Source: Candidatus Aminicenantota bacterium (GTDB taxonomy: Bacteria; Acidobacteriota; Aminicenantia; Aminicenantales; Aminicenantaceae). Taken from it: DNA of 34,767 nt. The position numbers were made by a program, and so were the translations under genes. The first letter of the stretch is position 1, and each line of letters begins with the position of its first letter. Of this stretch, positions 14,522 to 30,591 are shown one piece after another. The DNA is taken from the NCBI GenBank assembly GCA_003648765.1, contig QMPV01000012.1:1-34767 (forward strand). Direction: 5' to 3'. Below the pieces are notes generated by a model. The model saw nothing but the letters and a program-made list of their open reading frames with translations, ran no database searches and was not told the DNA's origin.

Positions 14522-15103
14522 ATGGAAATCCAGAGAAAAATAAAATTTGAGGGAGAGCTTTCGCGGGATTTTCTTGACGAAATTAAAGAGATGTCCCATT
14601 GCGATGAAATCGATCGCTGCATTCAATGCGGCACCTGTAGCAGTTCCTGTCCTATGGCCATCTATATGGATTACCCTCCTCGAAAAATTATCGCCTTTGT
14701 GAAAAATGGATTCAGGGAAGAAGCCTTAAAAAGTTTTACTATCTGGCTCTGTTCCTCCTGCTATACCTGTCAGGTTCGTTGTCCCGCTAAAATTAAAATC
14801 ACCGATGTCATGTATGCCTTGAAAAGGAAAGCTATTCAGGAAAAAGTTTATCCTGGGCAATTTACTATCCCTGTCCTTGCCCGGGAAATGTATCGAATGA
14901 TTGCTAAAAACGGGCGTAGCTCCGAACTCTGGCTCATTCTCAATCTTTACTTAAAATCATGGAATCCCCTGGGTCTTATGAAGATGGCTCCGACAGGAAT
15001 AAGCCTGCTCAAAACAGGACGGATGAGCTTCAAGAAAGAAAAGATCAAGAATACTAGTCAACTTCAGAAAATCTTAAAAGCCGTCAAGGAGGATGGACAA
15101 TGA
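14522..15103 (+). CDS. hdrC: HdrC-like iron-sulfur subunit
   Basis: A 193-residue soluble ferredoxin-like protein. Two [4Fe-4S] motifs are complete: C33-x2-C36-x2-C39-x3-C43-P and C77-x2-C80-x2-C83-x3-C87-P. The spacing and the sequence around them (IDRCIQCGTCSSSCPM; WLCSSCYTCQVRCP) are those of heterodisulfide reductase subunit C, which carries electrons from the HdrA flavin to the HdrB active site. It is the first gene of the operon, with the ribosome site AAGGAGG, and its stop overlaps the hdrB start. In bacteria without coenzymes M and B, Hdr-type subunits serve other disulfide or C1-linked partners. Confidence 0.93.
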   Translation: MEIQRKIKFEGELSRDFLDEIKEMSHCDEIDRCIQCGTCSSSCPMAIYMDYPPRKIIAFVKNGFREEALKSFTIWLCSSCYTCQVRCPAKIKITDVMYALKRKAIQEKVYPGQFTIPVLAREMYRMIAKNGRSSELWLILNLYLKSWNPLGLMKMAPTGISLLKTGRMSFKKEKIKNTSQLQKILKAVKEDGQ

Positions 15104-15978
15104 AAGATTATGCCTATTATCCCGGTTGCTCACTCAAGGGCAATGCTAAACACTACGAAGAATCCATCCTGCCTGTTTTTAAAGAACTGGGATTTGCTCT
15201 TGAGGAGCTGGAAGACTGGAATTGTTGTGGAGCTACGGCCTATTTTGCCGTTGACGACCGCATGGCTGCAGCTATTTGCGGCCGAAATTTAGCGCTGGCG
15301 GAGAAAGAAGGCAAAGATATTCTGGCTCCTTGTGCTGGTTGCTATTTAACTTTAAGGAAATCAAATCAATATCTAGCTAATGGCTCAGAAGAAGCCCAGA
15401 AAATTCTGGCCGTTCTCAAAGATGTAGATTGTGAATATCATGGGCAGGTCAAAGTGAAACACCCTTTAGAAGTTCTCATTCAAGACGTAGGGCTGAAAAC
15501 CATCCAAGCCAAAGTTCAAAATCCTTTGGTCGGTCTAAAAGTCGCCTGTTATTACGGCTGTCAATTAGTCAGACCTTTCACTGAATTCGATGATCCTGAC
15601 TACCCCGTGACTTTGGACCAAGTAATGGCGGCTATTGGAGCTACACCGGTTGAATATTCGGCCAAAACTAAATGTTGTGGCGGTTCTCTCACAGGAACAA
15701 TTGAAGAAGTAGGCACTCAGCTCAATTATGTTCTCCTTAAAGAAGCTAAAAGAAAAGAAGCTGATGTGATTGTGACTATATGTCCTCTGTGTCAATTTAA
15801 TCTGGAAATAATCCAGAATAAAGTAGCCCACAAATTTAAGGAAAAATTTGATATTCCCGTCCTCTATTTTTCCCAGCTAATGGGCCTGGCCTTTGGCCTG
15901 AATAAATATGAACTGGGGTTTAAACGTTCCATTATTCCTTTGAGCCCGCTGTGGGAAAAAATTCAGAGAGGAGGATAA
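15100..15978 (+). CDS. hdrB: HdrB-like catalytic subunit with two CCG domains
   Basis: A 292-residue protein with the two cysteine-rich CCG domains that bind noncubane [4Fe-4S] clusters in HdrB. Domain 1 has C10 (YYPGCS), C42-C43 (NCCGA), C78 and C81 (PCAGC). Domain 2 has C150/C154 (ACYYGC), C192-C193 (KCCGG), C228 and C231 (CPLC). All ligands are present, so a working disulfide-type active site is likely. In methanogens HdrB reduces CoM-S-S-CoB; the substrate here is unknown, because nothing in the window suggests those coenzymes. Its ATG overlaps the hdrC stop by four bases and hdrA-N follows one base after its stop, so the three Hdr genes are coupled. Confidence 0.94.
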   Translation: MKDYAYYPGCSLKGNAKHYEESILPVFKELGFALEELEDWNCCGATAYFAVDDRMAAAICGRNLALAEKEGKDILAPCAGCYLTLRKSNQYLANGSEEAQKILAVLKDVDCEYHGQVKVKHPLEVLIQDVGLKTIQAKVQNPLVGLKVACYYGCQLVRPFTEFDDPDYPVTLDQVMAAIGATPVEYSAKTKCCGGSLTGTIEEVGTQLNYVLLKEAKRKEADVIVTICPLCQFNLEIIQNKVAHKFKEKFDIPVLYFSQLMGLAFGLNKYELGFKRSIIPLSPLWEKIQRGG

Positions 15979-15979
15979 G

Positions 15980-16831
15980 ATGAACCAAAATGGTCAGCCT
16001 AGAATAGGTGTTTTTGTCTGTCATTGTGGCACTAACATTGCCGGCAAAGTAAATGTCTATGAAGTGGTCGACTTCTCTTCCAAACTCGACCATGTGGTCA
16101 TCGCCAAAGAATACAAATTCATGTGTTCTGATCCCGGGCAGGAACTTATCAAGCAAAGCATCCTAGAATACAAGCTTAACCGGGTTGTAGTAGCCTCCTG
16201 TTCTCCTTTAATGCACGAACCCACTTTCCGCGCTGTTACGGCGGAGGCTGGTCTTAATCCCTTCTATTTCCAGATGTCCAATATCCGGGAGCATGTCTCC
16301 TGGGTGACAGAAGACCCGGAGAAAGCCACCAAAAAGGCTAAAGCTCTTATTTCAGCAGCTGTCCGCCGGGTGGCTTTACATGACCCTCTCTTTAAAAAAG
16401 AAGTTCCGGTCCGACCCGAAGTCCTCATTGTTGGCGGAGGCATCGCCGGTATCCATGCCGCCCTGACTTACGCCAATTCAGGGAAAAAGGTCTATCTGGT
16501 GGAGAAGGAGCCCTCAATCGGAGGACATATGGCCATGCTGGACAAAACTTTTCCCACCCTTGACTGCTCCGCCTGTATTTTAACTCCTAAAATGACCGAA
16601 GTAGGTAAACATCCTAACATTGAGCTTTTAACTTGGAGTGAGATTGAGGAAGTTTCCGGATATGTGGGCAATTTCAAAGTCAAAATCAAGAAAAAAGCCC
16701 GCTATGTTGACCTGGATAAGTGTAATGGTTGCGGAGCTTGTTGGGAAAATTGCCCGACAGTCATTACTCCTTCTGAAAGGATAATCCGGAAAGGAAAAAC
16801 CATCATTAAAATTGTCGAAAAAGAACATTGA
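15980..16831 (+). CDS. hdrA: N-terminal half of HdrA (split flavin subunit)
   Basis: 283 residues, less than half of a normal HdrA. It contains the N-terminal domain with C14/C16 (VFVCHCGTN), C49 and C74 (ASCSP), the first FAD-binding Rossmann motif VGGGIAGIHAAL (151-162), the HdrA-typical LDCSACILTPKM (195-204), and the first cluster of the inserted ferredoxin domain, C248-x2-C251-x2-C254-x3-C258. The protein stops just after this cluster. In whole HdrA the next segment begins with an A-I-[YR]-x-P-x-x-QAVP stretch; that stretch occurs at residue about 202 of the gene at 23352, which carries the rest of HdrA. So this is a clean split, not decay: the frame is intact, the ribosome site (GAGAGGAGG) is good, and the other half is in the same operon. 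The FAD site would need both polypeptides. Confidence 0.9.
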   Translation: MNQNGQPRIGVFVCHCGTNIAGKVNVYEVVDFSSKLDHVVIAKEYKFMCSDPGQELIKQSILEYKLNRVVVASCSPLMHEPTFRAVTAEAGLNPFYFQMSNIREHVSWVTEDPEKATKKAKALISAAVRRVALHDPLFKKEVPVRPEVLIVGGGIAGIHAALTYANSGKKVYLVEKEPSIGGHMAMLDKTFPTLDCSACILTPKMTEVGKHPNIELLTWSEIEEVSGYVGNFKVKIKKKARYVDLDKCNGCGACWENCPTVITPSERIIRKGKTIIKIVEKEH

Positions 16832-16832
16832 A

Positions 16833-17207
16833 ATGACTCTTCAACAAATTAAGGAACTTCTTCAAGCTGAAGTCATCTTTGGAGACCACTATCTGGATAG
16901 AGAAATTACTTTTGCTGGCGGGTCAGATCTGATGAGTGATGTTTTAGCTTTTGGGCAACCAGGAATTCTTTTGCTCACTGGTTTAACCAATCTCCAATCC
17001 GTCCGTACCGCCGATATTATCGAAGCTAAAGCCATCATCTATGTAAGAGGAAAAAAGCCGGATGCCCAAACTATCAAATTTGCCCGAGAAAAAAATATTC
17101 CCATATTATCCACCCCCTTAACGATGTATGAGGCCTGCGGGATTCTTTATCAAGCTGGGCTACCGGGAGTAGGGAGCTTACGTCCCACAACAACCTCTAA
17201 TGAATAG
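16833..17207 (+). CDS. DRTGG-domain protein 1
   Basis: A small protein of 124 residues, almost entirely one DRTGG-like domain (MTLQQIKELLQAEVI...SDLMSDVL...VRGKKPDAQTIKFAREKNIPIL). The domain occurs in phosphotransacetylase and HPr kinase families and is thought to bind a small ligand or a partner protein; its role as a stand-alone protein is not established. I chose the ATG at 16833, just after the hdrA-N stop (TGAAATG), because it begins the conserved domain; it has no ribosome site and probably depends on re-initiation. The gene at 19019 is a clear paralogue. Its stop overlaps the following HATPase gene. Confidence 0.85.
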   Translation: MTLQQIKELLQAEVIFGDHYLDREITFAGGSDLMSDVLAFGQPGILLLTGLTNLQSVRTADIIEAKAIIYVRGKKPDAQTIKFAREKNIPILSTPLTMYEACGILYQAGLPGVGSLRPTTTSNE

Positions 17208-17646
17208 ACATGATGAATTTATCCAAACATTTACCATTTTGGGTAGAGATTTCAGCCGAGCCGGCAGCGTCTCGACTGAAATTAAAGAAATCCTTCAAGA
17301 AATCGGTGTGCCTTCATCCATCATTCGGCGGGTGGCTATTGCTTCTTATGAGGCAGAAATGAATGTAGTTATGTATGCTCAAAAAGGAGAATTAACTCTA
17401 ACGCTTAACCCGGAGACCATTAAAATAGAAGTGGAGGATGAAGGCCAGGGCATAGAAGATATTGAACTAGCTATGCAGGAAGGTTACTCCACTGCTACAG
17501 AAGAAATGCGGGAAATGGGCTTTGGAGCTGGTATGGGTTTACCTAATATCAAGAAGAATGCCCATATCTTTATTATTACTTCCTCGCCTGGAGTAGGCAC
17601 ATATTTAAAAATGATCTTTTACTTGGACGAGGAGAGGGCGGCCTAA
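17200..17646 (+). CDS. Anti-sigma-factor-like ATPase (HATPase domain) 1
   Basis: A 148-residue single-domain GHKL ATPase of the SpoIIAB/RsbW type. It has an N-box E51-x3-N55 (EAEMN), a G1 box D80-EGQGI and a G2-like GFGAGMGLPNIKKNA (107-121). There is no histidine-phosphorylation domain, so it is either a serine/threonine kinase acting on a partner or a nucleotide-gated binding protein. Its ATG overlaps the DRTGG stop, and the next gene starts at the last base of its stop codon. Homologues sit beside [FeFe]-hydrogenase genes in other anaerobes, suggesting a regulatory role; the target is unknown. Confidence 0.88.
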   Translation: MNRHDEFIQTFTILGRDFSRAGSVSTEIKEILQEIGVPSSIIRRVAIASYEAEMNVVMYAQKGELTLTLNPETIKIEVEDEGQGIEDIELAMQEGYSTATEEMREMGFGAGMGLPNIKKNAHIFIITSSPGVGTYLKMIFYLDEERAA

Positions 17647-19022
17647 TGGAATATTTTCATACTATTCGCATTGACCCTGACAAATGCCAGGGCCGCATGA
17701 GCTGTCTCCGCGTTTGCCCTACCCAGGCCATTCGAGTCAGAGGAGGTAAAGCCCGCATGCTGGAAGATAGATGTATTGATTGCGGGGAATGCATTACGGC
17801 CTGTAAAAACGGAGCCATTCGGCCACTCACCGATCCAGTAGGTGAATTAACCAAATTCCGCTACACTATAGCCATCCCCACTCCTGCCTTATATGCCCAA
17901 TTCGGCCAAGAAATTCTTCCAGGAAAAATCCTCAGCGGCCTCCGTCGGCTTGGTTTTGATGATGCCTACGATCTAGCTTACACTTGCGGGGAAGTAAGTC
18001 TTGTCATCCAGGAATATCTACGGGAAAATAAAGGCCCCCGACCGATTATTTCCAATGTCTGTCCTACGGTGGTCCGACTCATTCAGGTTAAATATCCATC
18101 TCTGGTGGACCACGTCACTCCCATTGACATCCCTCGGGAAATAGCCGGCCGGGAAATAAAAAAGAAAAAGGCCCAACAACTTGGACTGAAAGAAAAAGAA
18201 ATCGGTGCTTTTTATATCACTCCTTGTCCAGTTAAAATGCTTTCGATTAAACAGCCAGCGGAAAAAGTCAAGTCTCATCTCGACGGGGCTATTTCGATTG
18301 CTGATATTTACGGTCCCCTCCTCTCAGCCATGGAAACTCTGGATAAATCAGAAGAAAACAACTCCCTGGAAAATATCTGTCTCCTGGGTTTGGGCTGGGC
18401 CATTGCCGGTGGCATTCGGCGGACCTTAAAGCTGAAGAATTCCTTGGCTGTCTCAGGCATCACCGAGATAATTAAAGTCTTTGAAGATATAGAAAGAGGC
18501 AAATTAAAACATATCGATTTTATTGAAGCTTATTCTTGTCCTCAAGGTTGTGTGGGTGGCTCTCTAACCGTGGAGAACCTTTACATTTCTTATAATAAAA
18601 TCCTTCAACTCTTGGAAACATTGGAATTCGAAAAAATAAAAGCCTGCCCGGACATTGTTAAAATCCGCCGTCGTTATCGCTCCGGTTACTACTTCATCGA
18701 AGGTAAATTAAAACCCAGACCACTAAAACCCCTATATGAAGACCTTTCTCTAGCCATTCAGAAAAAGAAGGAAAAAGAAGAGATCTATGCCCGACTCCCC
18801 AAAATAGATTGTGGCGTTTGCGGCTCCCCTACCTGTCAGGCATTCGCCGAAGATGTGGTCAGAGGGGAGGCCGAGTTAACTGACTGTTTCGCCATGATTC
18901 CGGAGAAATTTCAGGAACTTTCTCAGGAATTAATTAAACTTTTAAAGAAAACCGCCCAGGCCTTCTCCTCAAAAATCCCCAAGAAGCAAACCCTTTCTAA
19001 GGAAAAAAAGAGGAAAAAATGA
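17646..19022 (+). CDS. H-cluster-like [FeFe]-hydrogenase-related protein (probable sensor)
   Basis: 458 residues. A ferredoxin domain (1-60) has C43-x2-C46-x2-C49-x3-C53 and an incomplete first motif, C14, R17, C20, C24. The hydrogenase-like domain keeps the four [4Fe-4S]H ligands: C139 (SNVCPT), C194 (ITPCPVK), C298 and C302 (YSCPQGCVGG), plus K197. In catalytic enzymes the L1 motif is TSCCP; here it is SNVCP, so the proton-transfer cysteine is replaced by V138. A C-terminal C389-x2-C392-x4-C397-x16-C414 motif is the small FeS domain found in group C sensory hydrogenases. The PAS and output domains of many such sensors are missing, but separate HATPase, DRTGG and PHP genes flank it. It is more likely to sense H2 or redox state than to turn over H2. 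A basic, lysine-rich tail ends the protein. Confidence 0.85.
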   Translation: MEYFHTIRIDPDKCQGRMSCLRVCPTQAIRVRGGKARMLEDRCIDCGECITACKNGAIRPLTDPVGELTKFRYTIAIPTPALYAQFGQEILPGKILSGLRRLGFDDAYDLAYTCGEVSLVIQEYLRENKGPRPIISNVCPTVVRLIQVKYPSLVDHVTPIDIPREIAGREIKKKKAQQLGLKEKEIGAFYITPCPVKMLSIKQPAEKVKSHLDGAISIADIYGPLLSAMETLDKSEENNSLENICLLGLGWAIAGGIRRTLKLKNSLAVSGITEIIKVFEDIERGKLKHIDFIEAYSCPQGCVGGSLTVENLYISYNKILQLLETLEFEKIKACPDIVKIRRRYRSGYYFIEGKLKPRPLKPLYEDLSLAIQKKKEKEEIYARLPKIDCGVCGSPTCQAFAEDVVRGEAELTDCFAMIPEKFQELSQELIKLLKKTAQAFSSKIPKKQTLSKEKKRKK

Positions 19023-19360
19023 CTTTACAAGAAATTATCAAGGGTTTAAATCTCGAAGTTATTACTGGAGGAGATAATTTAAATCTCGAGGTAAAAGATG
19101 GGTACACCAGCGACCTCCTCAGCGATGTGATGGCCAATGCTCAACCTGCCTGCCTTTGGATCACTCTCCAGACCCATGTCAATATTGTGGCCGTAGCCAA
19201 ACTAAAAGACTTGGCCGGGATTATTATTGTTAACGGCCGTCAGCCCGACAAAGAAACCCGTCAAAAGGCGCAAGAGGAAAACCTGCCTCTTCTCCTGAGC
19301 AAGGAGACAGCCTTTCAGGTCTCGGGGCGACTTTATCAACTTCTGGGAAAGGGAAAGTGA
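19019..19360 (+). CDS. DRTGG-domain protein 2
   Basis: A 113-residue paralogue of the protein at 16833: both begin MTLQ-I, carry an SDLLSDVM/SDLMSDVL motif, and share the NGRQPDKETRQKAQEENLPLL/VRGKKPDAQTIKFAREKNIPIL segment. It is a single DRTGG domain with no catalytic residues that I can identify. Its ATG overlaps the preceding stop (ATGA) and its stop overlaps the GTG start of the PHP gene. Two diverged copies flanking the H-cluster-like gene suggest a heteromeric regulator, but that is inference. Confidence 0.85.
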   Translation: MTLQEIIKGLNLEVITGGDNLNLEVKDGYTSDLLSDVMANAQPACLWITLQTHVNIVAVAKLKDLAGIIIVNGRQPDKETRQKAQEENLPLLLSKETAFQVSGRLYQLLGKGK

Positions 19361-20094
19361 AGGTGCTTCGAACTTTTAAAGCTGATCTCCACATTCATAC
19401 TTGCCTTTCTCCCTGCGGTGAACTTTCTATGTCGCCTCGCAATATCATCCTCCGCGCTGTGGAGGAAAAAATTGATATCCTCGGCATTTGTGACCACAAC
19501 TCCGCTGAAAATGTCCCGGCCCTTTTGGCCATAGCCAAAACATATCCCGTGACTATTTTCCCCGGCATGGAAATAACCTCCCAGGAAGAAATCCATATCC
19601 TGGGACTTTTTGATAATTTAGAGGCCGTTCTCCAGCTCCAGGAAGAAGTCTATCATCATCTCCCGGGAGAAAATGATGAAGAAGCTTTTGGGCTTCAGGT
19701 AGTGGTCAATGAACAGGGAGAAGTTTTACGCTTCAATCCTCGATTACTTATTGGTGCTTGCAACCTCTCTCTCAACCAGATTGTCGATTTAATTCATTCC
19801 TTTAAGGGCCTAGCCATCGCTTCCCATATTGACCGGGAATCATTCAGCTTGATCAGTCAGTTAGGTTTCATTCCCTCTGATATCATTCTGGATGCTTTAG
19901 AAATTTCTCCTTCCATTTCTTACTATCAGGCTCTCAATCGTTTTGCTCCTCACCTGCCGTTGGTCTCCTTTTCCGATGCCCACCGGCCCGAGGAAATAGG
20001 ACAAAGCTTCACCCGCTTCCTCATCCAAGAGGCCTCTCTAACTGAGATTCGCCTGGCTCTCCGAAACCAACAAGGCAGGAGGATAATTCATTAA
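19357..20094 (+). CDS. PHP-domain metal-dependent phosphoesterase
   Basis: 245 residues with the metal-binding motifs of the PHP superfamily: DLHIHTCLSP (H12, H14), GICDHNS (D46, H47), PGMEITSQEEIHIL (E72, H80), ASHIDR and the C-terminal SDAHRPEE. Family members hydrolyse phosphoesters such as histidinol phosphate or nucleotides with a trinuclear metal site. The substrate is unknown. The GTG start overlaps the DRTGG stop (GTGA). Its place between HATPase and DRTGG genes, next to an H-cluster-like protein, suggests that it reverses a phosphorylation or degrades a signalling nucleotide; group C [FeFe] proteins linked to phosphatases are a known theme. Confidence 0.9.
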   Translation: MKVLRTFKADLHIHTCLSPCGELSMSPRNIILRAVEEKIDILGICDHNSAENVPALLAIAKTYPVTIFPGMEITSQEEIHILGLFDNLEAVLQLQEEVYHHLPGENDEEAFGLQVVVNEQGEVLRFNPRLLIGACNLSLNQIVDLIHSFKGLAIASHIDRESFSLISQLGFIPSDIILDALEISPSISYYQALNRFAPHLPLVSFSDAHRPEEIGQSFTRFLIQEASLTEIRLALRNQQGRRIIH

Positions 20095-20095
20095 A

Positions 20096-20629
20096 ATGGA
20101 GGATTTATCCTTGCACATTCTTGATGTGGCCGAAAATTCTCTGGCGGCCAAAGCTACCCGGGTAATTATCCGTCTTGAAGAGGATACCCAGGCTAAAACC
20201 CTCCGACTGGTTATTGAAGACAATGGTCAGGGGATGGATAAAGAGACTTTGAAACGGGCTGTTGATCCTTTTTTCACCACCAAACAGACCCGTCGAGTGG
20301 GCTTGGGACTTTCTTTACTGGCTCAAGCGGCCCACGCCACGGGGGGACAGTTTTCTCTGGAATCAAAGCCTGGTTGGGGAACAAAAGTGACAGCCACTTT
20401 TAAAACAGATCATTGGGACTTGAAACCCCTCGGCGACATTAGTCAAACCTTATTGACTCTTATTCTAGGCCATCCTGAAGTGGAGTTGATTTTTATTCAC
20501 CGCCGGGACAATCAAGAAGCTATCTTCTCTACCGAAAAGGTTAAAGCCGAGCTTAACGGATGGCTACTTAATTCTCCCCAGGCAATTCCATTAATCATGG
20601 ATCATATAAATAAAGCTATGAACTTATAA
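20096..20629 (+). CDS. Histidine-kinase-like ATPase domain protein 2
   Basis: 177 residues. The first 105 form a GHKL ATPase with N-box E13-N14 (DVAENSLAA), G1 box D42-NGQGM, an F-box-like VDPFFTTK and G2 box GLGLSLL (69-75); these resemble histidine kinase catalytic domains more than SpoIIAB. There is no dimerisation/phosphoacceptor histidine domain. The remaining 70 residues (WDLKPLGDISQTLLTLILGHPEVEL...) are unassigned. It begins one base after the PHP stop and is followed after 11 bp by nuoE with a fresh ribosome site (AGGAGGG), the boundary between the signalling cassette and the electron-transfer genes. Confidence 0.87.
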   Translation: MEDLSLHILDVAENSLAAKATRVIIRLEEDTQAKTLRLVIEDNGQGMDKETLKRAVDPFFTTKQTRRVGLGLSLLAQAAHATGGQFSLESKPGWGTKVTATFKTDHWDLKPLGDISQTLLTLILGHPEVELIFIHRRDNQEAIFSTEKVKAELNGWLLNSPQAIPLIMDHINKAMNL

Positions 20630-20640
20630 GGAGGGAAACC

Positions 20641-21093
20641 ATGGAGGCTAAAGTTTCCGAAATACTCCAACGATATGAACCGGAACAAAGCTCTATCATC
20701 GCTATTTTGCAGGACATCCAGGAAGCCTATGGCTATCTTCCCCGAGAGACACTAGTTGAAGTAGCCCAGGAACTCAATATTCCGCTAAGTCGTGTTCTCA
20801 GTCTAGCCACCTTCTTCCGAGCTTTTAGTTTAAAGCCCAAAGGTAAACATCCTATCCACGTCTGTATGGGCACCGCCTGCCATGTTCGAGGCGCTCAACT
20901 CGTCTTGGAAAAGTTCGAACGTGAACTGGGCATTAAAACCGGAGAAACAACTGAAGATTTCACTTTTTCTTTAGACGCCGTTCGCTGCGTGGGTTGTTGT
21001 GGTTTGGCCCCAGTGGTAATGGTCGGGGAAGAAGTCCACGGTAAGGTTTCTCAAATGAAAGTTCCGGGAATTATTAAAAAATATAAAAAATAA
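20641..21093 (+). CDS. nuoE: NuoE/HydC-type [2Fe-2S] subunit
   Basis: A 150-residue thioredoxin-fold ferredoxin of normal NuoE/HydC length. Cluster ligands are C75-x4-C80 (VCMGTACHVRG) and C116-x3-C120 (RCVGCCGLAP). In complex I and in trimeric bifurcating hydrogenases this subunit works with NuoF to move electrons between NAD(H) and the FeS chain. The N-terminal helical bundle (LQDIQEAYGYLPRETLVEVA) is typical. It is followed after 11 bp by the small [2Fe-2S] protein gene and then nuoF. Confidence 0.94.
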   Translation: MEAKVSEILQRYEPEQSSIIAILQDIQEAYGYLPRETLVEVAQELNIPLSRVLSLATFFRAFSLKPKGKHPIHVCMGTACHVRGAQLVLEKFERELGIKTGETTEDFTFSLDAVRCVGCCGLAPVVMVGEEVHGKVSQMKVPGIIKKYKK

Positions 21094-21104
21094 AGAGGTG
21101 CAAA

Positions 21105-21494
21105 ATGCCTAAACTGACAATAGAAGAATTGGAAAAATTAAGGGAGAGGGCGAAAAAGGCAACATTTCTCCGAGAAACCACTGATTATCGGGCCAAGATA
21201 ACGGTTCACATGGGCACCTGTGGGATCGCGGCTGGCGCCAGAGAAATCATGAATGCCTTTCTTCAAGAGCTTCAAGCAAGAGATATCACTGATGTTCTTC
21301 TCACCAACTCAGGTTGTGCTGGGCTGTGCAGTCGTGAACCTATGGCCACTATAGAAATTAAGGGCCAGGCTCCAGTGAAATATGTTGATCTAACCCCGGA
21401 AAAAGTTAAGCAAATATTCGAAAAACATGTTCTCGGAGGCGAAATAGTTCAAGACTACGCCCTCGGCATCGGTAGCGAAAAAACTGACTATTAA
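21105..21494 (+). CDS. Small (2Fe-2S) ferredoxin-like protein
   Basis: A 129-residue protein with the thioredoxin-like [2Fe-2S] fold. It has C39 (HMGTCGIAAGA) and C71-x3-C75 (SGCAGLCSREP), three cysteines rather than the four of NuoE; as I recall, the TCGIAAGA form is usual for this stand-alone family. Such genes are often found between hydC/nuoE and hydB/nuoF in bifurcating hydrogenase operons, where it may be an extra electron carrier or an assembly subunit. It has the ribosome site AGAGGTG, and nuoF follows after 12 bp. Confidence 0.88.
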   Translation: MPKLTIEELEKLRERAKKATFLRETTDYRAKITVHMGTCGIAAGAREIMNAFLQELQARDITDVLLTNSGCAGLCSREPMATIEIKGQAPVKYVDLTPEKVKQIFEKHVLGGEIVQDYALGIGSEKTDY

Positions 21495-21506
21495 AGGAGG
21501 GCCGAT

Positions 21507-23339
21507 ATGGAAGAGAAAACTACTCCGACAAGATACCGGCTACATCTCATGGTCTGTGCCGGGACAGCCTGCGTCTCCAACCGCTCTTTTGAAATAAAAG
21601 AAGCTTTGGAGAAAGAGCTCAAAAAACAGGGCTTAGAAAATGAAGTCCTGGTCGTGACCACGGGCTGCAATGGCTTCTGTGAAAGAGGACCTCTCTTAGT
21701 GGTGCAACCTGGTAATATTTTCTATCAACAACTGACAGTTAAAGACATTCCTTACCTAGTGGAAGAACACTTTCTGAAAGGACGTCCGGTTCAAAAATTA
21801 ATGTATACTCCGCCTGAAGAAAAAAAACCCATTCCTGTCCTCAACGATATAGACTTCTTCAAAAAACAAGTTCTCATTGCTCTTCGGAATCGAGGTTTAA
21901 TTGATCCCGAAAAAATCGAAGATTATATCGCCCGAGATGGCTATCGAGCTCTAGTTAAAGCCCTCACCCAGATGACTCCCGAAGAAATAATTGAAGAAAT
22001 TAAGAAATCAGGGCTTCGAGGTAGAGGCGGGGCCGGCTTTCCAACCGGCCTTAAATGGGAATTTGTCCGGCTAGCCAGTCCTGCCAATGGCGGCCTAAAA
22101 TACCTGGTTTGTAATGGCGACGAAGGTGACCCCGGGGCTTTTATGGACCGGAGTATTCTAGAGGCCGATCCCCATTCAGTTATCGAAGGAATGGTTATTG
22201 GCGCTAAAGCCATTGGCGCTCAACAGGGTTATGTTTACATCCGCAATGAATACCCTCTAGCCCTCAAGAGATTAACTCTGGCGCTGGAGCAAGCCCGTGA
22301 ATATGGACTTCTCGGCAAAGATATTTTAGGAACGGGCTTTGATTTTGATATCAAAGTGGCTCGCGGGGCTGGCGCCTTTGTCTGCGGTGAAGAGACGGCC
22401 TTGCTAGCCTCAATTGAAGGCCGTCTGGGTGAACCTCGACCTCGTCCACCTTACCCCGCTCAACGTGGCCTCTACGGCCAACCAACCTGTATCAATAATG
22501 TTGAAACCTGGGCGAACGTGCCGGTGATAATCAATCGTGGAGCTGAATGGTTTTCCAAAATCGGCACCAAGACCAGTAAAGGAACCAAAGTATTTTCTCT
22601 GGTCGGTAAAATCAACAACACCGGTTTGGTCGAAGTTCCCATGGGGATAACGCTCCGGGAAATTATTTTTGAAATAGGCGGAGGAATTCCCGGAGGCAAA
22701 GAATTTAAGGCCGTCCAGACAGGCGGCCCTTCGGGTGGGTGTATTCCTAAAGAAAAACTTGACCTGCCTATCGACTATGAAAGTTTAACCGAAGCCGGCT
22801 CCATGATGGGCTCTGGGGGTATGGTGGTTATGGATGAAGACACCTGTATGGTGGATGTGGCCAAATACTTCCTTTCTTTTACTCAAGACGAATCCTGCGG
22901 CAAATGTACTCCTTGTCGGGAAGGAACCAAGGCTATGTTGGACATTCTGGAGCGCATCACTAAAGGGGAAGGCACCGAAGAAGATTTACAGCTTCTAGAA
23001 GATTTGGCGGTCTCCATTAAGGAAACCGCCCTCTGTGGGCTAGGAAAAACTGCTCCCAATCCGGTGTTGACAACTCTCCGTTATTTCCGGGACGAATATT
23101 TAACCCACATCCGCGACAAGAAATGTCCAGCTCATGTTTGTCGAGATCTTAATGTCTACACTATTGACGAAAAAATTTGTCTGGAAGTGGGTCATGGCTG
23201 TGACGTGTGCCGACGCAATTGTGCTTCTGAGGCTATTATTGGCGAAAAAAATCAACCTCACCGGATAATTCAGGAAAAATGCATCAAATGCGGCGTGTGC
23301 TACGATGTTTGTAAATTCGGCGCCGTGAAAGTTGATTAA
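21507..23339 (+). CDS. nuoF: NuoF/HydB-type NAD(H)-binding flavoprotein subunit
   Basis: 610 residues in the HydB layout. The N-terminal thioredoxin-like [2Fe-2S] domain has C17, C22, C54 and C58. The FMN/NADH domain has GLRGRGGAGF (169-178) and CNGDEGDPGAF. An SLBB domain follows, then the NuoF [4Fe-4S] site C464-x2-C467-x2-C470 (ESCGKCTPCREG) plus the later LCGLG cysteine. A C-terminal two-cluster ferredoxin follows. Its second motif, C592-x2-C595-x2-C598-x3-C602, is standard; the first is C558-x6-C565-x2-C568-x3-C572, with an insertion and no proline after the last cysteine. The subunit oxidises or reduces NAD(H) at FMN. The strong ribosome site AAAGGAGG precedes the ATG. It is the NAD module of the complex proposed for this operon. 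Confidence 0.95.
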   Translation: MEEKTTPTRYRLHLMVCAGTACVSNRSFEIKEALEKELKKQGLENEVLVVTTGCNGFCERGPLLVVQPGNIFYQQLTVKDIPYLVEEHFLKGRPVQKLMYTPPEEKKPIPVLNDIDFFKKQVLIALRNRGLIDPEKIEDYIARDGYRALVKALTQMTPEEIIEEIKKSGLRGRGGAGFPTGLKWEFVRLASPANGGLKYLVCNGDEGDPGAFMDRSILEADPHSVIEGMVIGAKAIGAQQGYVYIRNEYPLALKRLTLALEQAREYGLLGKDILGTGFDFDIKVARGAGAFVCGEETALLASIEGRLGEPRPRPPYPAQRGLYGQPTCINNVETWANVPVIINRGAEWFSKIGTKTSKGTKVFSLVGKINNTGLVEVPMGITLREIIFEIGGGIPGGKEFKAVQTGGPSGGCIPKEKLDLPIDYESLTEAGSMMGSGGMVVMDEDTCMVDVAKYFLSFTQDESCGKCTPCREGTKAMLDILERITKGEGTEEDLQLLEDLAVSIKETALCGLGKTAPNPVLTTLRYFRDEYLTHIRDKKCPAHVCRDLNVYTIDEKICLEVGHGCDVCRRNCASEAIIGEKNQPHRIIQEKCIKCGVCYDVCKFGAVKVD

Positions 23340-23351
23340 GGAGGTGAGACT

Positions 23352-25109
23352 ATGATTCATCTAACCATAGACGGTAAAAAGTTAGAGGTAGAAGAAGGAA
23401 CTACCATCCTCCAAGCGGCCGAAAAAGCTGATATCCATATTCCCACCCTTTGCTTCCATCCTCTCCTAGAACCCTACGCCTCCTGCCGGGTCTGCATTGT
23501 CGAAGTTGAACATCAAGGTAAGAAAGAATTATTGACTTCCTGCAATACCCTGGTTCGTGAGGGAATGGTGGTTGAAACAGCTTCTGAACGGGTCCTGCGA
23601 GCCAGAAAATTGAATGTGGAAATGCTCCTGGCCCGGGCTCCGGCAGCTGAGCCCGTCAAAAAAATTGCCCAGGAGCTGGGTATTGAGAAACCTCGTTTTG
23701 AAATTAAGGATCCCCAAGAAAAATGTATTCTCTGTGGACTTTGCGTCCGGGCCTGTGAGGAGGTAGTAGGAGCCAATGCCATCAGTTTTATTAATCGAGG
23801 CCAAGAACGAGAAGTGGCTCCGCCTTTTGGAGAACCGAGCGAAGCTTGTATCGGTTGTACAGCCTGTGCTTTCTTCTGTCCTACTGGAGCTATCACTTAT
23901 GAAGATCTCTATGGACGCCAAGTCATCCATGAAGAACTTAATCTCGGGCCAGCTACAGCTATTCGGGTGCCTATTCGGCAAGCTGTGCCCATGGTACCTT
24001 TTATCGACGAAGACGCCTGCATTCATTTTAAGACGGGCAACTGCCAGCTGTGCGTCAAGGTCTGCGAAAAGGAAGCCATCAACCACGATATGAAAGAAGA
24101 AGAAATAGAAATCGAAGTGGGCTCCATCATCTTGGCCTCAGGTTTCAAACCCTTTGACGCCCGACGAATTCCAGCTTATGGTTACGGAAGATTTCCCAAC
24201 GTCATTACTGCTCTGGAATTTGAAAGATTGGTTAATGCCTCTGGACCTACTGGAGGAAAAATCCTTCTGGCGAATGGCCAAGAACCAAAAGCCGTGGGCA
24301 TCATTCATTGTGTGGGCTCACGAGATGAAAATTACAATGAGTATTGTTCCCGAGTCTGCTGCATGTACTCCCTCAAATTTGCTCATCTCATTAGAGAAAA
24401 AACTGAGGCTGATATCTATGATTTTTACATCGACATGCGGTGCTTTGGAAAAGGTTACGAAGAATTCTACCATCGTCTCCTTCACGAAGGGACTAAATTC
24501 ATCCGAGGCCGCGTGTCTGAAATTACTGACATTCCTTTAACCCCAGAAGAAGAAGGTAAACTTATCATTCGGGTTGAAGACACTCTGGTGGGCACTGTCA
24601 GACGAATCCCCGTCGACATGGTGATTTTAGCTACTGGACTTGAACCTAGTCTCGATCATAATGAGATTGCTCATATTTTCAATATTTCTTGCAGCCAAGA
24701 TACCTTCTTTCTGGAAAGACATCCCAAGCTCGCGCCGGTTTCCACTTTCTCTGATGGCATCTTTCTAGCCGGGACCTGTCAATCTCCCAAAGATATTCCT
24801 GATACAGTTGCCCAGGCTGGAGCTGCTGCTTCTGAAGCCCTGGCTTTGGCTGATAAGGGTACTTTTGAGCTCGAGCCCATAACTGCCGAAATAGATGAAA
24901 AACTCTGTGCAGGCTGCCAAATCTGCGTTTCTCTTTGTCCTTTCAATGCTATCACCTACAACAAAGAAAAGCATATTTCCGAAGTCAACGACGCCCTGTG
25001 CAAAGGTTGCGGAACCTGTGTCTCAGCCTGTCCCTCCGGGGCCGCCCAACAGAAACACTTCCGCGATCTACAGATAATGGCGGAGATTGAAGGACTTTTC
25101 ATTGACTAA
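23352..25109 (+). CDS. NuoG-like N-terminus fused to the C-terminal half of HdrA
   Basis: 585 residues. A [2Fe-2S] domain (C34, C45, C48, C64) and a two-cluster ferredoxin (C125/128/131/135 and C166/169/172/176) resemble the N-terminus of NuoG/HydA, without the His-Cys3 cluster motif and without an H-cluster. From about residue 202 the sequence is HdrA from its middle: AIRVPIRQAVPMVPFIDE, inserted-ferredoxin cluster C223/C231/C234/C238, the FAD-domain remainder with HCVGSRDE and YCSRVCCMYSLK (C320, C332, C336, C337, and K342 at the position of the flavin-contacting lysine of methanogen HdrA), and a C-terminal ferredoxin (C519/522/525/529 and C550/553/556/560). It lacks the first Rossmann motif, which is in the gene at 15980. 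It probably bridges NuoEF to the HdrA flavin. Start ATG after AAGGAGGTGAG. Confidence 0.92.
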   Translation: MIHLTIDGKKLEVEEGTTILQAAEKADIHIPTLCFHPLLEPYASCRVCIVEVEHQGKKELLTSCNTLVREGMVVETASERVLRARKLNVEMLLARAPAAEPVKKIAQELGIEKPRFEIKDPQEKCILCGLCVRACEEVVGANAISFINRGQEREVAPPFGEPSEACIGCTACAFFCPTGAITYEDLYGRQVIHEELNLGPATAIRVPIRQAVPMVPFIDEDACIHFKTGNCQLCVKVCEKEAINHDMKEEEIEIEVGSIILASGFKPFDARRIPAYGYGRFPNVITALEFERLVNASGPTGGKILLANGQEPKAVGIIHCVGSRDENYNEYCSRVCCMYSLKFAHLIREKTEADIYDFYIDMRCFGKGYEEFYHRLLHEGTKFIRGRVSEITDIPLTPEEEGKLIIRVEDTLVGTVRRIPVDMVILATGLEPSLDHNEIAHIFNISCSQDTFFLERHPKLAPVSTFSDGIFLAGTCQSPKDIPDTVAQAGAAASEALALADKGTFELEPITAEIDEKLCAGCQICVSLCPFNAITYNKEKHISEVNDALCKGCGTCVSACPSGAAQQKHFRDLQIMAEIEGLFID

Positions 25110-25195: not shown

Positions 25196-25627
25196 ATGAG
25201 TCAGCAAGCCTTCGAACCCAAGCTAGTTGGCTTCTTGTGTAATTGGTGTTCCTATACCGGGGCTGACCTCGCCGGAACAGCCCGGATGACCTACGCTCCC
25301 AATCTCCGGATAATCAGGGTCATGTGTAGTGGCCGAGTGGATCCTCAATTTGTGCTCAAAGCTTTTCAGGAAGGAGCGGATGGAGTTCTTATCTCCGGCT
25401 GCCATCCCGGCGATTGCCATTACCAAGAAGGCAACTACAAAGCCCTCCGAAGGCACCGCCTACTATCCAAAATGTTGGAACAATTTGGCATCGAAAAAGA
25501 ACGTTTTCGTCTGGAATGGGTTTCCGCCGCAGAAGGTGCTAAATTCCAGAAAGTCTGTAATGAATTCACTGAACAAATCAGAAAATTAGGACCATTGTCC
25601 TGGAATGGAGGAAAAAAGAATGAGTGA
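25196..25627 (+). CDS. mvhD: MvhD-type [2Fe-2S] electron-transfer subunit
   Basis: 143 residues with the five cysteines of the MvhD/FlpD family: C15 and C18 ([12 protein letters not shown]), C44 (VMCSGRVDP), C69 and C74 ([10 protein letters not shown]). MvhD carries electrons from the [NiFe] hydrogenase (MvhAG) to the flavin subunit HdrA. The length is standard for the stand-alone subunit. Its presence between HdrA-C and MvhGA is the strongest contextual evidence that hydrogenase and Hdr modules form one complex. Its stop overlaps the mvhG start (ATGAGTGA). Confidence 0.95.
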
Positions 25628-26600
25628 TCAGAAGCCAAAAGTAGCTTTTTACTGGTGTGCATCCTGCGGAGGATGCGAAGAAGCTGTGATTGACCTGGCC
25701 GAAGATATCCTCAAAGTAGTGGAAGCTGTTGATATTGTTTTCTGGCCGGTAGCTCTCGATTTCAAGAAAAGTGACGTTGAAGCAATGGAAGACGGGTCAA
25801 TCGCAGTGAGTTTTATCAATGGAGCTGTGCGCCTCTCGGAACAAGAAGAGATGGTTAAATTGCTCCGCCGAAAATCTCAATTAGTCGTGGCCTTTGGCAG
25901 CTGCGCCCATTTGGGAGGAATTCCCGGGTTGGCTAATTTCTGGGACAAAGAATCCATTTTTAATCGAGCCTATCATACGACTCCTTCCACTGATAATCCT
26001 GAAGGGGTGGTTCCCCAAGAAAAATGCACTATTGACGGGAAGGAGTTATACTTACCAAGTTTTTTTAATACTGTTTATGCTCTTGATCAGGTTATCGATG
26101 TGGATTATTACCTCCCGGGATGTGCTCCTCCTCGAGACCTCATTATGAATGCTGTTCAGGCCATTCTTGAAGGTAACCTCCCTCCTAAGGGATCCGTGCT
26201 CTCTCCCAACAAAGCCCTCTGTGAAGACTGCGACCGCAATGACACCAAACCCGAAAAATTAGCCATCAAAGATATTAAACGTCCTTGGGAAGTTATTCTC
26301 GATCCCGAAGTTTGTTTCTTGGCTCAAGGGGTCATTTGTCTTGGCCCGGCCACCAGAACAGGTTGCGGCCAACGCTGCATTAGCGCCAACATGCCCTGTC
26401 GTGGTTGCTTCGGACCAACCGACCAAGTTATTGATATGGGAGCCAAATTCCTGGCAGCCTTTGCTTCTATTTTGGATGCTGATGACGAAAGCGAAGTGGA
26501 AAAAATTGTCGAGACAATCGTGGATCCTGCTGGCACCTTTTACCGCTTCAGTCTGCCAACATCCATTCTCAGACGACGTAAAATGGAGGAAAAACGATGA
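25620..26600 (+). CDS. mvhG: [NiFe]-hydrogenase small subunit, Mvh type (group 3c-like)
   Basis: 326 residues, cytoplasmic (no twin-arginine signal). Proximal cluster ligands are C16-x2-C19 (ASCGGCE), C95 (GSCAHLGG) and C168 (LPGCAPP). Further clusters use C201/C204 (LCEDCDRN), C232, C240, C249, C253, C260 and C263. I chose the ATG at 25620 because GGAGGA at 25607-25612 is ideally spaced; an upstream ATG at 25605 would start before this site. The protein passes electrons from the Ni-Fe site of MvhA to MvhD. Its last bases overlap the mvhA start (ATGA). Confidence 0.95.
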
Positions 26601-28057
26601 GTCAAAGAATTACAATTGATCCCATAACTAGGTTAGAAGGCCATGGCAAAATAGAAATATTTTTGGACGATAAAGGCGATGTTGAACGGGCTTTTCTCCA
26701 GATTCCTGAACTCCGGGGATTCGAACAATTTGCCGTAGGTCGACCTGCCGAAGAAATGCCCCGGATCACTCCTCGAATCTGCGGTGTCTGCCCCACGGCT
26801 CACCATATGGCTTCCACTAAAACTCTGGATGATCTCTTTAAAGTAGAGCCCACCCCTGCAGCCCGGATGATTAGAGAGTTAATTTATAACGCCTTCCAAT
26901 TTGAAGACCATACGCTTCATTTCTTTTTTCTAGGCGGACCGGACTTCGTTGTTGGTCCCAAAGCCCCCAAAGCCGAACGCAATATACTCGGCGTAATCGG
27001 CAAAGTTGGTCTGGAAATTGGGGGAAAAGTTATCCGAGCTAGAAGGGAAGCCCGAGACATTATCAATTACCTTGGAGGTAAAGTAATTCATCCCGTTTGT
27101 GGCCTTCCTGGTGGTGTTTCCAAACCACTGGATGAAGAACACCGACTCCAATTTTTGGAAACCGCCAAATTCATCCGGGAATTTGCCCTCTTTGCTCTCC
27201 AGATCTTTGATGATGTCGTTCTCAAAAATAAAGAATACGTCGAACTAGTCACTGGTGATGCCTATAAGATGGAAACTTATTATATGGGACTGGTGAATAA
27301 AGATAACAAAGTTGACTTTTATGACGGCGACGTTCGGGTAGTTGATCCCGAAGGCAAAGAATTTGCCAAATTTAAACCCCATGAATATCTTGATCATATT
27401 GCCGAACATGTGGAACCTTGGACCTATATCAAATTCCCCTTCTTAAAGAAAGTCGGTTGGAAAGGTTTTGTTGAGGGTAAAAATAGCGGCATTTTCCGAG
27501 TGGCTCCTCTCGCTCGACTAAATGCTTCTGATGGGATGGCTACGCCCTTGGCTCAGGAAGCCTATGAAAAAATGTACGAAACACTGGGGGGCAAACCTTC
27601 CCACCACACCCTCGCCTTTCATTGGGCTCGCCTTATTGAAGCTCTCCAGGCAGCGGAAAAGATGGTTGAACTTCTGGAAAATAAAGACATCACTGATCCC
27701 AATATTCGGAATATTCCCACAGAAACTCCCACAGAAGGAATAGGTATTGTTGAAGCTCCTCGAGGAACTCTTATTCACCACTACAAAACAGATGAAAGAG
27801 GTATCATTACCGAAGCCAACCTAATTGTGGCCACTGTTAACAACGCGGCGGCCATAACCATGTCCATCGAAAAAGCAGCCAAAGCCTTTATTAAAGGGGG
27901 CAAAGTAGACGAGGGAATTCTCAATCTGGCGGAGATGGCCTTCCGACCCTATGATCCCTGTCACGCTTGCGGAACTCACGCCCTACCTGGAGATATGCCT
28001 CTTGAAATCCGGATTTACGATCACGAAGGGGAACTAGTCAAGAAACTGAAAAAATAA
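26597..28057 (+). CDS. mvhA: [NiFe]-hydrogenase large subunit, Mvh type (group 3c-like)
   Basis: 486 residues with all four Ni-Fe ligands: C62 and C65 in RICGVCPTAHH, and C455 and C458 in DPCHACGTH (H461). It splits or forms H2 in the cytoplasm. A 25-residue tail follows H461 (beginning ALPGDMPLEIRIYDHEG); in many [NiFe] hydrogenases a C-terminal extension is removed by a specific endopeptidase after Ni insertion, but neither that protease nor hyp maturation genes are in the window. The gene ends the operon, 15 bp before a strong terminator. With MvhG, MvhD, Hdr and Nuo subunits it would feed H2 electrons to a bifurcating flavin. Confidence 0.95.
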   Translation: MSQRITIDPITRLEGHGKIEIFLDDKGDVERAFLQIPELRGFEQFAVGRPAEEMPRITPRICGVCPTAHHMASTKTLDDLFKVEPTPAARMIRELIYNAFQFEDHTLHFFFLGGPDFVVGPKAPKAERNILGVIGKVGLEIGGKVIRARREARDIINYLGGKVIHPVCGLPGGVSKPLDEEHRLQFLETAKFIREFALFALQIFDDVVLKNKEYVELVTGDAYKMETYYMGLVNKDNKVDFYDGDVRVVDPEGKEFAKFKPHEYLDHIAEHVEPWTYIKFPFLKKVGWKGFVEGKNSGIFRVAPLARLNASDGMATPLAQEAYEKMYETLGGKPSHHTLAFHWARLIEALQAAEKMVELLENKDITDPNIRNIPTETPTEGIGIVEAPRGTLIHHYKTDERGIITEANLIVATVNNAAAITMSIEKAAKAFIKGGKVDEGILNLAEMAFRPYDPCHACGTHALPGDMPLEIRIYDHEGELVKKLKK

Positions 28058-28599: not shown

Positions 28600-30591
28600 A
28601 TGAATCCACCACAGCTCTCCTTAAGAACAAAATTAATCCTTAGTTTCCTAGTGGTCATAATTTTTGGTGGTCTAATTTCCTTGATTATCGGCTGGCGCAT
28701 AGTAAAAAACACTCTTATCAGTCAAGCTCAACTAAAAGTTAAACATGACCTTTCAGCTGCCTGGATGGTCTTTAATGAACGCCTTAACGACATTAAAGAC
28801 ATTATTGCTCTGACTTCCGCCCGGGAAAGCCTTCACCAGGCGCTTCAGGAAAAGCGCCAAGATATTCTTCTTAAGTACCTCCAAAGAGTCCGTCAGGGAT
28901 ACGCTCTCGACTTTCTCAACCTGACCGATGCTCGAGGGCAAGTGGTCATTCGGACCAGAAATCCAGCTCATACCGGTGACGATCAGTCGAATGATGAATT
29001 AGTCTCCCGAGCTCTTCAAGGAGTTACCGTAGCTGCGCCTCAAATAATTCCCCGGAAAGAACTTCTCAAAGAAGGTCCTGATTTAGCTGAAAGAGCCAAG
29101 ATGAAAATTTTACCCACCCCTAAAGCCGCCCCTCGGGAGGAAAACATCGAAACGCGAGGCATGGTGTTAAAAGCCGCCGCCCCCCTTATTGATGAAAGTG
29201 GCCAAATATTGGGCGCTCTTTATGGGGGTTTGCTTTTGAATCGCAATTATGAAATTGTCGACCGAGTCAAAGGTATCGTTTATAAAGACGAAAAATACAA
29301 GGGTCGAGAAATTGGTACAGCCACTATTTTCCAGCACGACCTGCGCATCTCCACTAATGTCCGCAATAAAGATGGCAGCCGAGCCATCGGTACCCGGGTC
29401 TCCCGAGAAGTTAGTCAAGCCGTTTTGAAAGAAGGGCAACCTTGGATTGATCGAGCCTTTGTAGTCAATGATTGGTATATTACCGCCTATGAACCCATTC
29501 GCAACATTGAAGGACGCATTATCGGTATGTTGTATGTCGGCATGCTGGAAAAACCCTATTTGGACACTACTAATCGCGTGATGCTTACCTTTACCGGAAT
29601 GGCCTCTCTCTGTGTAGTAGTTCTTCTAATTATCCTCTATTTCTCCACGACCAGGATTATCAATCCCCTCCAAAAAATGGTGACCGCCACTCAATGGATT
29701 GCCCAAGGTGACCTCTCCCATAAAGTAGATGTGACTTCTAGCGATGAAATCGGCCAATTAGCTGCTTCCTTCAACGTGATGGTGGACAATCTTAAAGAAG
29801 CCAATCGAAAACTTATTGAATGGGGCAAAACTCTGGAAAAAAAAGTAGAAGAAAGAACTAAAGAATTATGCGCTATGCAAGCCCATCTGATTCAATCTGA
29901 AAAATTAGCTTCCCTCGGAAAATTAGCGGCAGGCATTGCGCATGAAATCAATAATCCTTTGGGCGGCATTCTAATTTACAGCCATCTTCTCTTGGAAGAT
30001 ACCGATAAAAATAGTCCTCACTATGAAAATTTAAAAAAAATCGTTAAAGAAACAGCCCGATGTAAAGAGATTGTCAAAAGGCTTTTGGAATTCGCGCGAC
30101 CCAAAGAACCGGAATTTACCTTGATCGATATCAATGAAATTGTCGAGAAATCCCTCTCTATCGTGGAAAGACAGGTGCTTTTCCAGAATATCAAAATCAT
30201 CAAAGATTATGATCCTCATCTCCCTAGAACAGTAGCTGACGGAGCTCAATTACAACAGGTGTTTACCAATATTATTATTAATGCGGCTGAAGCAATGAAT
30301 GGCCAAGGAACTCTCACGATTAAAACCTACCGAGATCCGGAGGATAAATATCTCCACATTTCCTTCGCCGACACCGGCCATGGCATAAGCGAAGAGGATA
30401 AAAGAAGAATTTTTGAACCCTTTTTCACGACGAAGGAGGTTGGCCAAGGCACCGGTTTAGGACTGGCTATAAGCTACAGCATAATCCAAAAACATCAAGG
30501 AACTATTGAAGTTATTAGTCAACCCCAAGAAGGAGCCACTTTTATTGTTAAACTTCCCATTAGGAAAGACGGGGATGAAGAAAAAACATAA
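28600..30591 (+). CDS. Sensor histidine kinase with extracytoplasmic Cache-like domain
   Basis: 663 residues. There is a membrane helix at about 11-32, a long extracytoplasmic region (33-326) resembling a Cache sensor (GTATIFQHDLRISTNV...GTRVS; DWYITAYEPIRN), a second helix (327-348), a HAMP domain (about 349-400), and a short coiled coil. The kinase core has H448 in the H-box GIAHEINNPLGG, then N-box, G1 FADTGHGIS, FFTTKEVGQGTGLGLAIS and a usual C-terminus. This is the NtrB-like kinase class that pairs with NtrC-type regulators; the regulator gene overlaps its end by 17 bp. Cache domains bind small molecules such as organic acids; the ligand here is unknown. No Shine-Dalgarno sequence precedes the ATG at 28600. 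Confidence 0.94.
   Translation: MNPPQLSLRTKLILSFLVVIIFGGLISLIIGWRIVKNTLISQAQLKVKHDLSAAWMVFNERLNDIKDIIALTSARESLHQALQEKRQDILLKYLQRVRQGYALDFLNLTDARGQVVIRTRNPAHTGDDQSNDELVSRALQGVTVAAPQIIPRKELLKEGPDLAERAKMKILPTPKAAPREENIETRGMVLKAAAPLIDESGQILGALYGGLLLNRNYEIVDRVKGIVYKDEKYKGREIGTATIFQHDLRISTNVRNKDGSRAIGTRVSREVSQAVLKEGQPWIDRAFVVNDWYITAYEPIRNIEGRIIGMLYVGMLEKPYLDTTNRVMLTFTGMASLCVVVLLIILYFSTTRIINPLQKMVTATQWIAQGDLSHKVDVTSSDEIGQLAASFNVMVDNLKEANRKLIEWGKTLEKKVEERTKELCAMQAHLIQSEKLASLGKLAAGIAHEINNPLGGILIYSHLLLEDTDKNSPHYENLKKIVKETARCKEIVKRLLEFARPKEPEFTLIDINEIVEKSLSIVERQVLFQNIKIIKDYDPHLPRTVADGAQLQQVFTNIIINAAEAMNGQGTLTIKTYRDPEDKYLHISFADTGHGISEEDKRRIFEPFFTTKEVGQGTGLGLAISYSIIQKHQGTIEVISQPQEGATFIVKLPIRKDGDEEKT

Follow-up and report, generated by a model that had tools for sequence, protein, structure and literature searches.

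What raises a question at this locus is the presence, inside an operon for energy metabolism, of six genes that resemble the parts of a signalling system, and the question is what such genes could do there. The stretch of DNA analysed (hereafter the window) comprises 34,767 nucleotides of Candidatus Aminicenantota contig QMPV01000012.1 (assembly GCA_003648765.1, positions 1 to 34,767), and the six genes, referred to here as the cassette, lie at 16833-20629 on the + strand between the genes for HdrA-N and NuoE. They specify two DRTGG-domain proteins, two ATPases, a PHP-fold phosphoesterase and a protein resembling the HydS hydrogenases. We propose, with a probability of roughly one half, that the cassette is a dedicated redox-responsive regulator of NuoEF-type (Bfu-type) electron-bifurcating enzymes, acting via a kinase/phospho-acceptor switch. 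The cassette genes are as follows.

16833..17207, + strand: DRTGG1, 124 amino acids from an ATG (Pfam DRTGG 4.4e-6, over the cut-off)
17200..17646, + strand: HATPase1, a GHKL ATPase of SpoIIAB/RsbW (serine-kinase) type (HATPase_c_2 2.9e-8)
17646..19022, + strand: HydS-like protein (Fe_hyd_lg_C 3.2e-28; C-terminal FeS domain 4.8e-14)
19019..19360, + strand: DRTGG2, 113 amino acids (Pfam DRTGG 2e-6, over the cut-off)
19357..20094, + strand: PHP-fold metallo-phosphoesterase with a GTG start (PHP 1e-5, just under the cut-off; PHP_C 8e-5, over the cut-off)
20096..20629, + strand: HATPase2, a histidine-kinase-like ATPase domain (HATPase_c 9e-17; sporulation kinase B 7.9e-7)

The cassette and its partner enzymes

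The original prediction had placed the six genes in this order, all overlapping or abutting, and the coordinates proved right: HdrA-N ends at 16831, the ATG of DRTGG1 is at 16833, consecutive genes overlap by 8, 1, 4 and 4 bases in turn, the PHP/HATPase2 pair abuts, and HATPase2 ends at 20629, with NuoE starting at 20641. In all, 396 genomes of the phylum were searched and GTDB contigs scanned, which provided 120 usable HydS-like sequences, the loci of which were annotated by profiles, and the DRTGG-HATPase1-HydS core was present in most of these about 120 loci, several of the nearest named ones belonging to Candidatus Aminicenantes metagenome-assembled genomes (67-72% identity). As dozens of genomes, belonging to several phyla, share this gene order, the cassette cannot be ascribed to chance. 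In a FastTree phylogeny with group A and C sequences as outgroup the HydS-like proteins fall into clade A (n=55, mostly Firmicutes) and clade B (n=65, including the window protein), with supports of 0.962 for A and B together, 0.965 for clade B and 0.12 for clade A; owing to the latter low value, clade B may be nested inside A. The HydS-like protein of the cassette is sister to the 'sensory' group D [FeFe] hydrogenases, of which TamHydS is the type.

Profile annotation placed the cassette in three settings. In Clostridia the genes mostly run DRTGG-HATPase1-HydS-DRTGG-PHP-NuoE-HATPase2-2Fe2S-NuoF, beside an [FeFe] HydABC enzyme, and a group A [FeFe] HydA was identified by motif in 19 loci, so that the synteny comparison bears out the earlier statement that related genes adjoin [FeFe] hydrogenases in these bacteria. 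The window-type arrangement, found in Aminicenantes and other phyla, has the cassette beside [NiFe] Hdr-Mvh-NuoEF enzymes, while in the third setting a short cassette (two DRTGGs, HATPase1 and HydS) adjoins NuoE-NuoF and a large subunit, a molybdopterin enzyme of the NADH-linked formate dehydrogenase type; this assignment was confirmed by Pfam for four loci and is a matter of profile similarity for most others. NuoF is present in 46 of the 47 full-context clade-B loci and two DRTGGs in 43 of the 47; PHP and HATPase2 accompany all 22 [NiFe]-linked loci of this set, and both are missing from 19 of its 21 formate dehydrogenase-linked loci. An [FeFe] HydA was seen in none of the full-context clade-B loci, and MvhA or formate dehydrogenase in no clade-A locus. 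Since the same cassette thus occurs beside [FeFe], [NiFe]-Hdr or formate dehydrogenase partners, the NuoEF module is the shared element. In three loci (L045, in genome G344, L082 and L086) the cassette is immediately preceded by MvhA; no NuoF was found inside the fetched stretch of L045, and the other two are short contigs.

The HydS-like protein and its [2Fe] pocket

The HydS-like protein consists of an N-terminal ferredoxin domain, an H-cluster-fold domain and a C-terminal Cx2Cx4Cx16C cluster domain, and a domain search found no PAS domain in it. It is predicted to have the H-domain fold, its AlphaFold2 model (mean predicted local distance difference test score, pLDDT, 89.6) matching [FeFe] hydrogenases with Z of about 27-33 (AF2 + VIA). 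The window protein retains the complete set of four [4Fe-4S]H cysteines (C139, C194, C298 and C302), and the cysteines at 139, 194, 302, 389, 392, 397 and 414 are kept in 120 of 120 HydS-like sequences. Group D proteins have two N-terminal [4Fe-4S] motifs; in the window protein the first of these clusters lacks its second Cys, the position (residue 17) being occupied by Arg. Of the 65 clade-B sequences, 27 have Cys here, 26 Arg, 11 His and one Lys, as against Cys in 55 of 55 in clade A.

While the cluster cysteines stay, the residues of the [2Fe] pocket are rebuilt in the window protein and in clade B, as judged from alignment and motif positions, from which the CpI and TamHydS numbering used here is also derived. 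An Arg (R164 in the window) that may fill the [2Fe] site is aligned with CpI Q325 in 58/65 clade-B and 1/55 clade-A sequences; the Glu at the position of TamHydS E252, proposed as the proton relay of group D (PMC11803613), is found in 53/55 of clade A and 18/65 of clade B and is Ile in the window; and G300 of the GGC loop is kept in 49/55 of clade A vs 5/65 of clade B, the window loop being QGC (Fisher values for these clade comparisons treat the sequences as if unrelated). K197, at the position of CpI K358, is lost in nine clade-B members. The Cys aligned with CpI C499 is replaced by His in four formate dehydrogenase-linked members (L061, L062, L096 and L123).

The host genome, 92% complete with 0.8% contamination, holds a single PF02906 (H-domain) protein, and it gave no match to HydG and none over the cut-off to HydF, HydE not having been searched for; its best matches in the HydF search are distant GTPases (93 bits vs a cut-off of 325). 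The same searches were positive for maturases in Thermotoga maritima, the control, and in nine genomes of the phylum. Among the 63 clade-B sequences with a tested genome, HydG over the cut-off was missing for 50 (HydE again not searched for), and the HydG positives of the first set (G021, G030, G068, G195, G231 and G274) each encode further H-domain proteins. As a control for genome incompleteness, HydG was looked for in 10 genomes whose cassette adjoins an [FeFe] enzyme and was found in 8, so that about a fifth of the negatives may be false, which is too few to explain 50 of 63. The cassette of the window is a real and widely conserved, maturase-orphan variant of an already known cassette with unsettled function. 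No report of maturase-less relatives of group D was found in the literature searched, which mostly did not extend to subscription journals.

ATPases, DRTGG and PHP proteins

The view of the cassette as signalling-like was upheld indirectly, by a SpoIIAB/RsbW-like HATPase1, by gene fusions and by intact catalytic residues. HATPase1 matches TIGR01925 (SpoIIAB) at 2.3e-12, which is below the cut-off, and a sequence comparison with the PDB gave no match at E 0.01. It has the GHKL fold with the N-box Glu/Asn and the G-boxes by which SpoIIAB/RsbW kinases are recognized: E51, N55 and the G-boxes are intact in the window, and the N-box Glu and Asn and all G-boxes are kept in 117 copies. Locus L076 (genome G064) has an otherwise present long cassette, in which HATPase1 can scarcely be recognised (31 bits). 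HATPase2 has a C-terminal extension and no phospho-acceptor domain.

DRTGG1 contains the motif D-x-x-S-D-V, which includes Ser35 and recurs in DRTGG2 by alignment, and the D and S of D-x-x-S are conserved at about 100% in 218 copies. The family assignment is confirmed by agreement between the PF07085 profile, over its cut-off, and the predicted fold, the AlphaFold2 model (pLDDT 91.8) superimposing on AF1212 (2ioj) with Z 16.4 and 1.9 Å over 114 residues. By sequence the DRTGG profile confidently reaches only the DRTGG domains of HPr kinase and pyrophosphatase, and the serine segment lies outside those strong alignments. DRTGG1 is a candidate phospho-acceptor or ligand-binding domain. The metal-ligand-type residues of the PHP protein (D10, H12, H14, D46, H47, E72, H157, D207 and H209) are complete and conserved at 97-100% in 79 copies. 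A single open frame encodes both DRTGG and HATPase1 at 16 loci and both PHP and HATPase2 at four, which speaks for joint action of the members of each pair.

A classical two-component system was ruled out, as the six products include neither a HisKA/DHp phospho-acceptor His nor a receiver domain. A role in anti-phage defence was likewise rejected: PADLOC matches the PHP protein alone (to Ppl and PDC-M49A, with partial profile coverage), and operon context and conservation speak against it.

Proposed mechanism and alternative explanations

Whereas the conservation of the cassette, the fusions, the intact catalytic residues, the missing maturases and the altered pocket are observations, we infer a redox input, phosphotransfer, a serine target, a phosphatase function of PHP and a regulated output, which could be connected as follows. 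In this organism the HydS-like protein would hold [4Fe-4S] clusters and no [2Fe] subsite, and, because that subsite is missing, would report redox state, be it that of reduced ferredoxin or of a partner enzyme, rather than H2. It would thereby gate HATPase1, an anti-sigma-type GHKL kinase that would phosphorylate both DRTGG proteins, with the invariant serine within D-x-x-S-D-V as target. PHP, with HATPase2 as its partner, would take the phosphate off again, and the neighbouring enzyme would be controlled in its activity, assembly or expression by the phospho-state of the DRTGG proteins.

The original prediction had offered an H2 or redox sensor, of which we prefer the redox sensor. A true H2 sensor, in which a complete H-cluster would signal H2 to the kinase parts, a role proposed for HydS of groups C and D, has in its favour the four [4Fe-4S]H cysteines and K197 of the window protein, the ability of TamHydS, from the sister group, to turn over H2 with synthetic cofactor (PMC8163306), and a neighbouring enzyme that is itself a hydrogenase. 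For the window genome this part of the prediction is nevertheless not supported, given a host with no HydG, no HydF over the cut-off and no other H-domain protein (most relatives being alike), and a rebuilt [2Fe] pocket with Arg inside and the relay Glu exchanged for Ile; the same core, moreover, also adjoins formate dehydrogenases. We consider it the least probable of the explanations discussed here. Hardly better is the prospect that the HydS-like protein serves the complex as an additional subunit for electron transfer, the other five products being accessories: it does contain multiple Fe-S clusters and shares homology with the H-domain closing BfuA in [FeFe] enzymes, yet its gene travels with the ATPase/DRTGG core, and in some Clostridia does so apart from NuoF.

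Some GHKL ATPases are chaperones, and an alternative which we regard as unlikely, albeit appreciably less so than these two, is an assembly, maturation or repair module for NuoEF complexes, with the ATPases and PHP acting as chaperone or hydrolase at cofactor insertion and the HydS-like protein as Fe-S scaffold. The existence of such chaperones and the way in which the cassette follows NuoEF across differing catalytic partners would agree with this, and the authors of work on NiFe-HydABCSL of Acetomicrobium mobile assume 'maturation and/or regulation' for similar additional genes in its operon (PMC8880783). Against it, 8 of 32 full-context clade-A loci have a HydS-like gene without NuoF nearby, and the SpoIIAB-like, histidine-kinase-like and DRTGG types, the last a regulatory domain, favour regulation.

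Several points weigh against a redox-responsive phospho-switch. The case for a redox input comes mainly from the exclusion of H2, K197 remains Lys in the window, and much of the evidence is also compatible with a role in maturation or repair. The DRTGG serine may serve the fold or bind a ligand and not be a phospho-site, HATPase2 is without an obvious substrate, and the cassette products include no STAS, PP2C, sigma factor or transcription regulator. The phosphatase step, finally, cannot be universal, because 19 of the 21 formate dehydrogenase-linked short cassettes are without PHP and HATPase2.

If a class of such cassettes does regulate bifurcating enzymes of several substrates, this bears on how the NADH/ferredoxin balance is tuned in anaerobes. 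A broader and tentative possibility is that Fe-S/GHKL-kinase/DRTGG phospho-switches form a widespread class in which the H-cluster fold without [2Fe] serves as a pure redox switch controlling NuoEF-type bifurcating enzymes of any substrate; group D 'sensory hydrogenases' would then be one branch of the class and not its model.

Comparison with known systems

TamHydS and TmHydS have been termed putative sensors, with no pathway identified (PMC8163306, PMC10055695, PMC13104023), and for group D the cassette points, by fusion and synteny, to HATPase1 and DRTGG as likely signalling partners, the natural maturase-less relatives providing controls. TamHydS (group D/M2e) of Thermoanaerobacter mathranii resembles the window protein in having an N-terminal ferredoxin domain, an H-domain, a C-terminal Cx2Cx4Cx16C motif and no PAS (PMC8163306, PMC13104023, PMC11803613), and in both cases a histidine-kinase-like ATPase is encoded next door and a NuoEF-type enzyme close by. 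The window differs in its host without maturases, in the Arg at the CpI Q325 position, in Ile for the relay Glu and QGC for the GGC loop, and in the partner enzyme, here [NiFe]-Hdr and in relatives also formate dehydrogenase. TmHydS (group C) of T. maritima is likewise a proposed regulator with altered second-sphere residues in the H-domain and a C-terminal cluster (PMC10055695); unlike the window protein it carries a PAS domain, and its genome has maturases according to our control search.

The NiFe-HydABCSL operon of A. mobile is comparable in that additional kinase-like genes accompany a [NiFe] Bfu-type enzyme; of their products, HisK and HydD are absent from the purified holoenzyme (PMC9304861, PMC8880783), a point in favour of the proposed regulator. 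Relative to the genes named there (HisK, HydD and HydP), the window adds the HydS-like protein, the DRTGG pair and Hdr and Mvh subunits. The SpoIIAB/RsbW partner switch, too, places a GHKL kinase with E-x-x-x-N beside a small protein with an invariant serine; in the cassette, however, the partner is DRTGG, sometimes fused, and not STAS, and there is neither a sigma factor nor PP2C.

Operon context

The operon runs HdrC-HdrB-HdrA-N, the six cassette genes, NuoE, a 2Fe-2S protein, NuoF, a NuoG-N/HdrA-C fusion, MvhD, MvhG and MvhA. The genes around the cassette are as follows.

14522..16831, + strand: HdrC, HdrB and HdrA-N, the latter the first 283 amino acids of HdrA
20641-21093, + strand: NuoE (Pfam)
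21105-21494, + strand: small 2Fe-2S thioredoxin-like protein (Pfam)
21507-23339, + strand: NuoF with C-terminal 4Fe-4S domains (Pfam)
23352..25109, + strand: NuoG/BfuA-like N-terminal part fused to the C-terminal part of HdrA (Fer2_4, Fer4; HdrA2 model positions 263-639; FeFe A6 N-terminal part)
25196..28057, + strand: MvhD, MvhG and MvhA of a [NiFe] hydrogenase (MvhA motifs)

By Pfam domain content 20641-23339 represents a BfuC/BfuB-like NAD(H) module, with the NuoF-like subunit bearing extra Fe-S domains and the NuoE-like subunit that define the Bfu family, and the nickel-ligand motifs RICGVC and DPCHAC of MvhA are intact. HdrA is split: its first 283 amino acids (15980-16831) end in one CxxCxxCxxxC half-ferredoxin, while the remainder sits behind the NuoG/BfuA-like N-terminus (23352-25109) and opens with a further cysteine group, a split also seen in other [NiFe]-Hdr loci. 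In locus L043 (genome G336, 16666-19899) a second HdrC-HdrB-HdrA set directly follows the NuoG/HdrA fusion, in the place taken by MvhDGA in relatives. Downstream of MvhA, the window encodes a sensor histidine kinase with sCache domains at 28600-30591.

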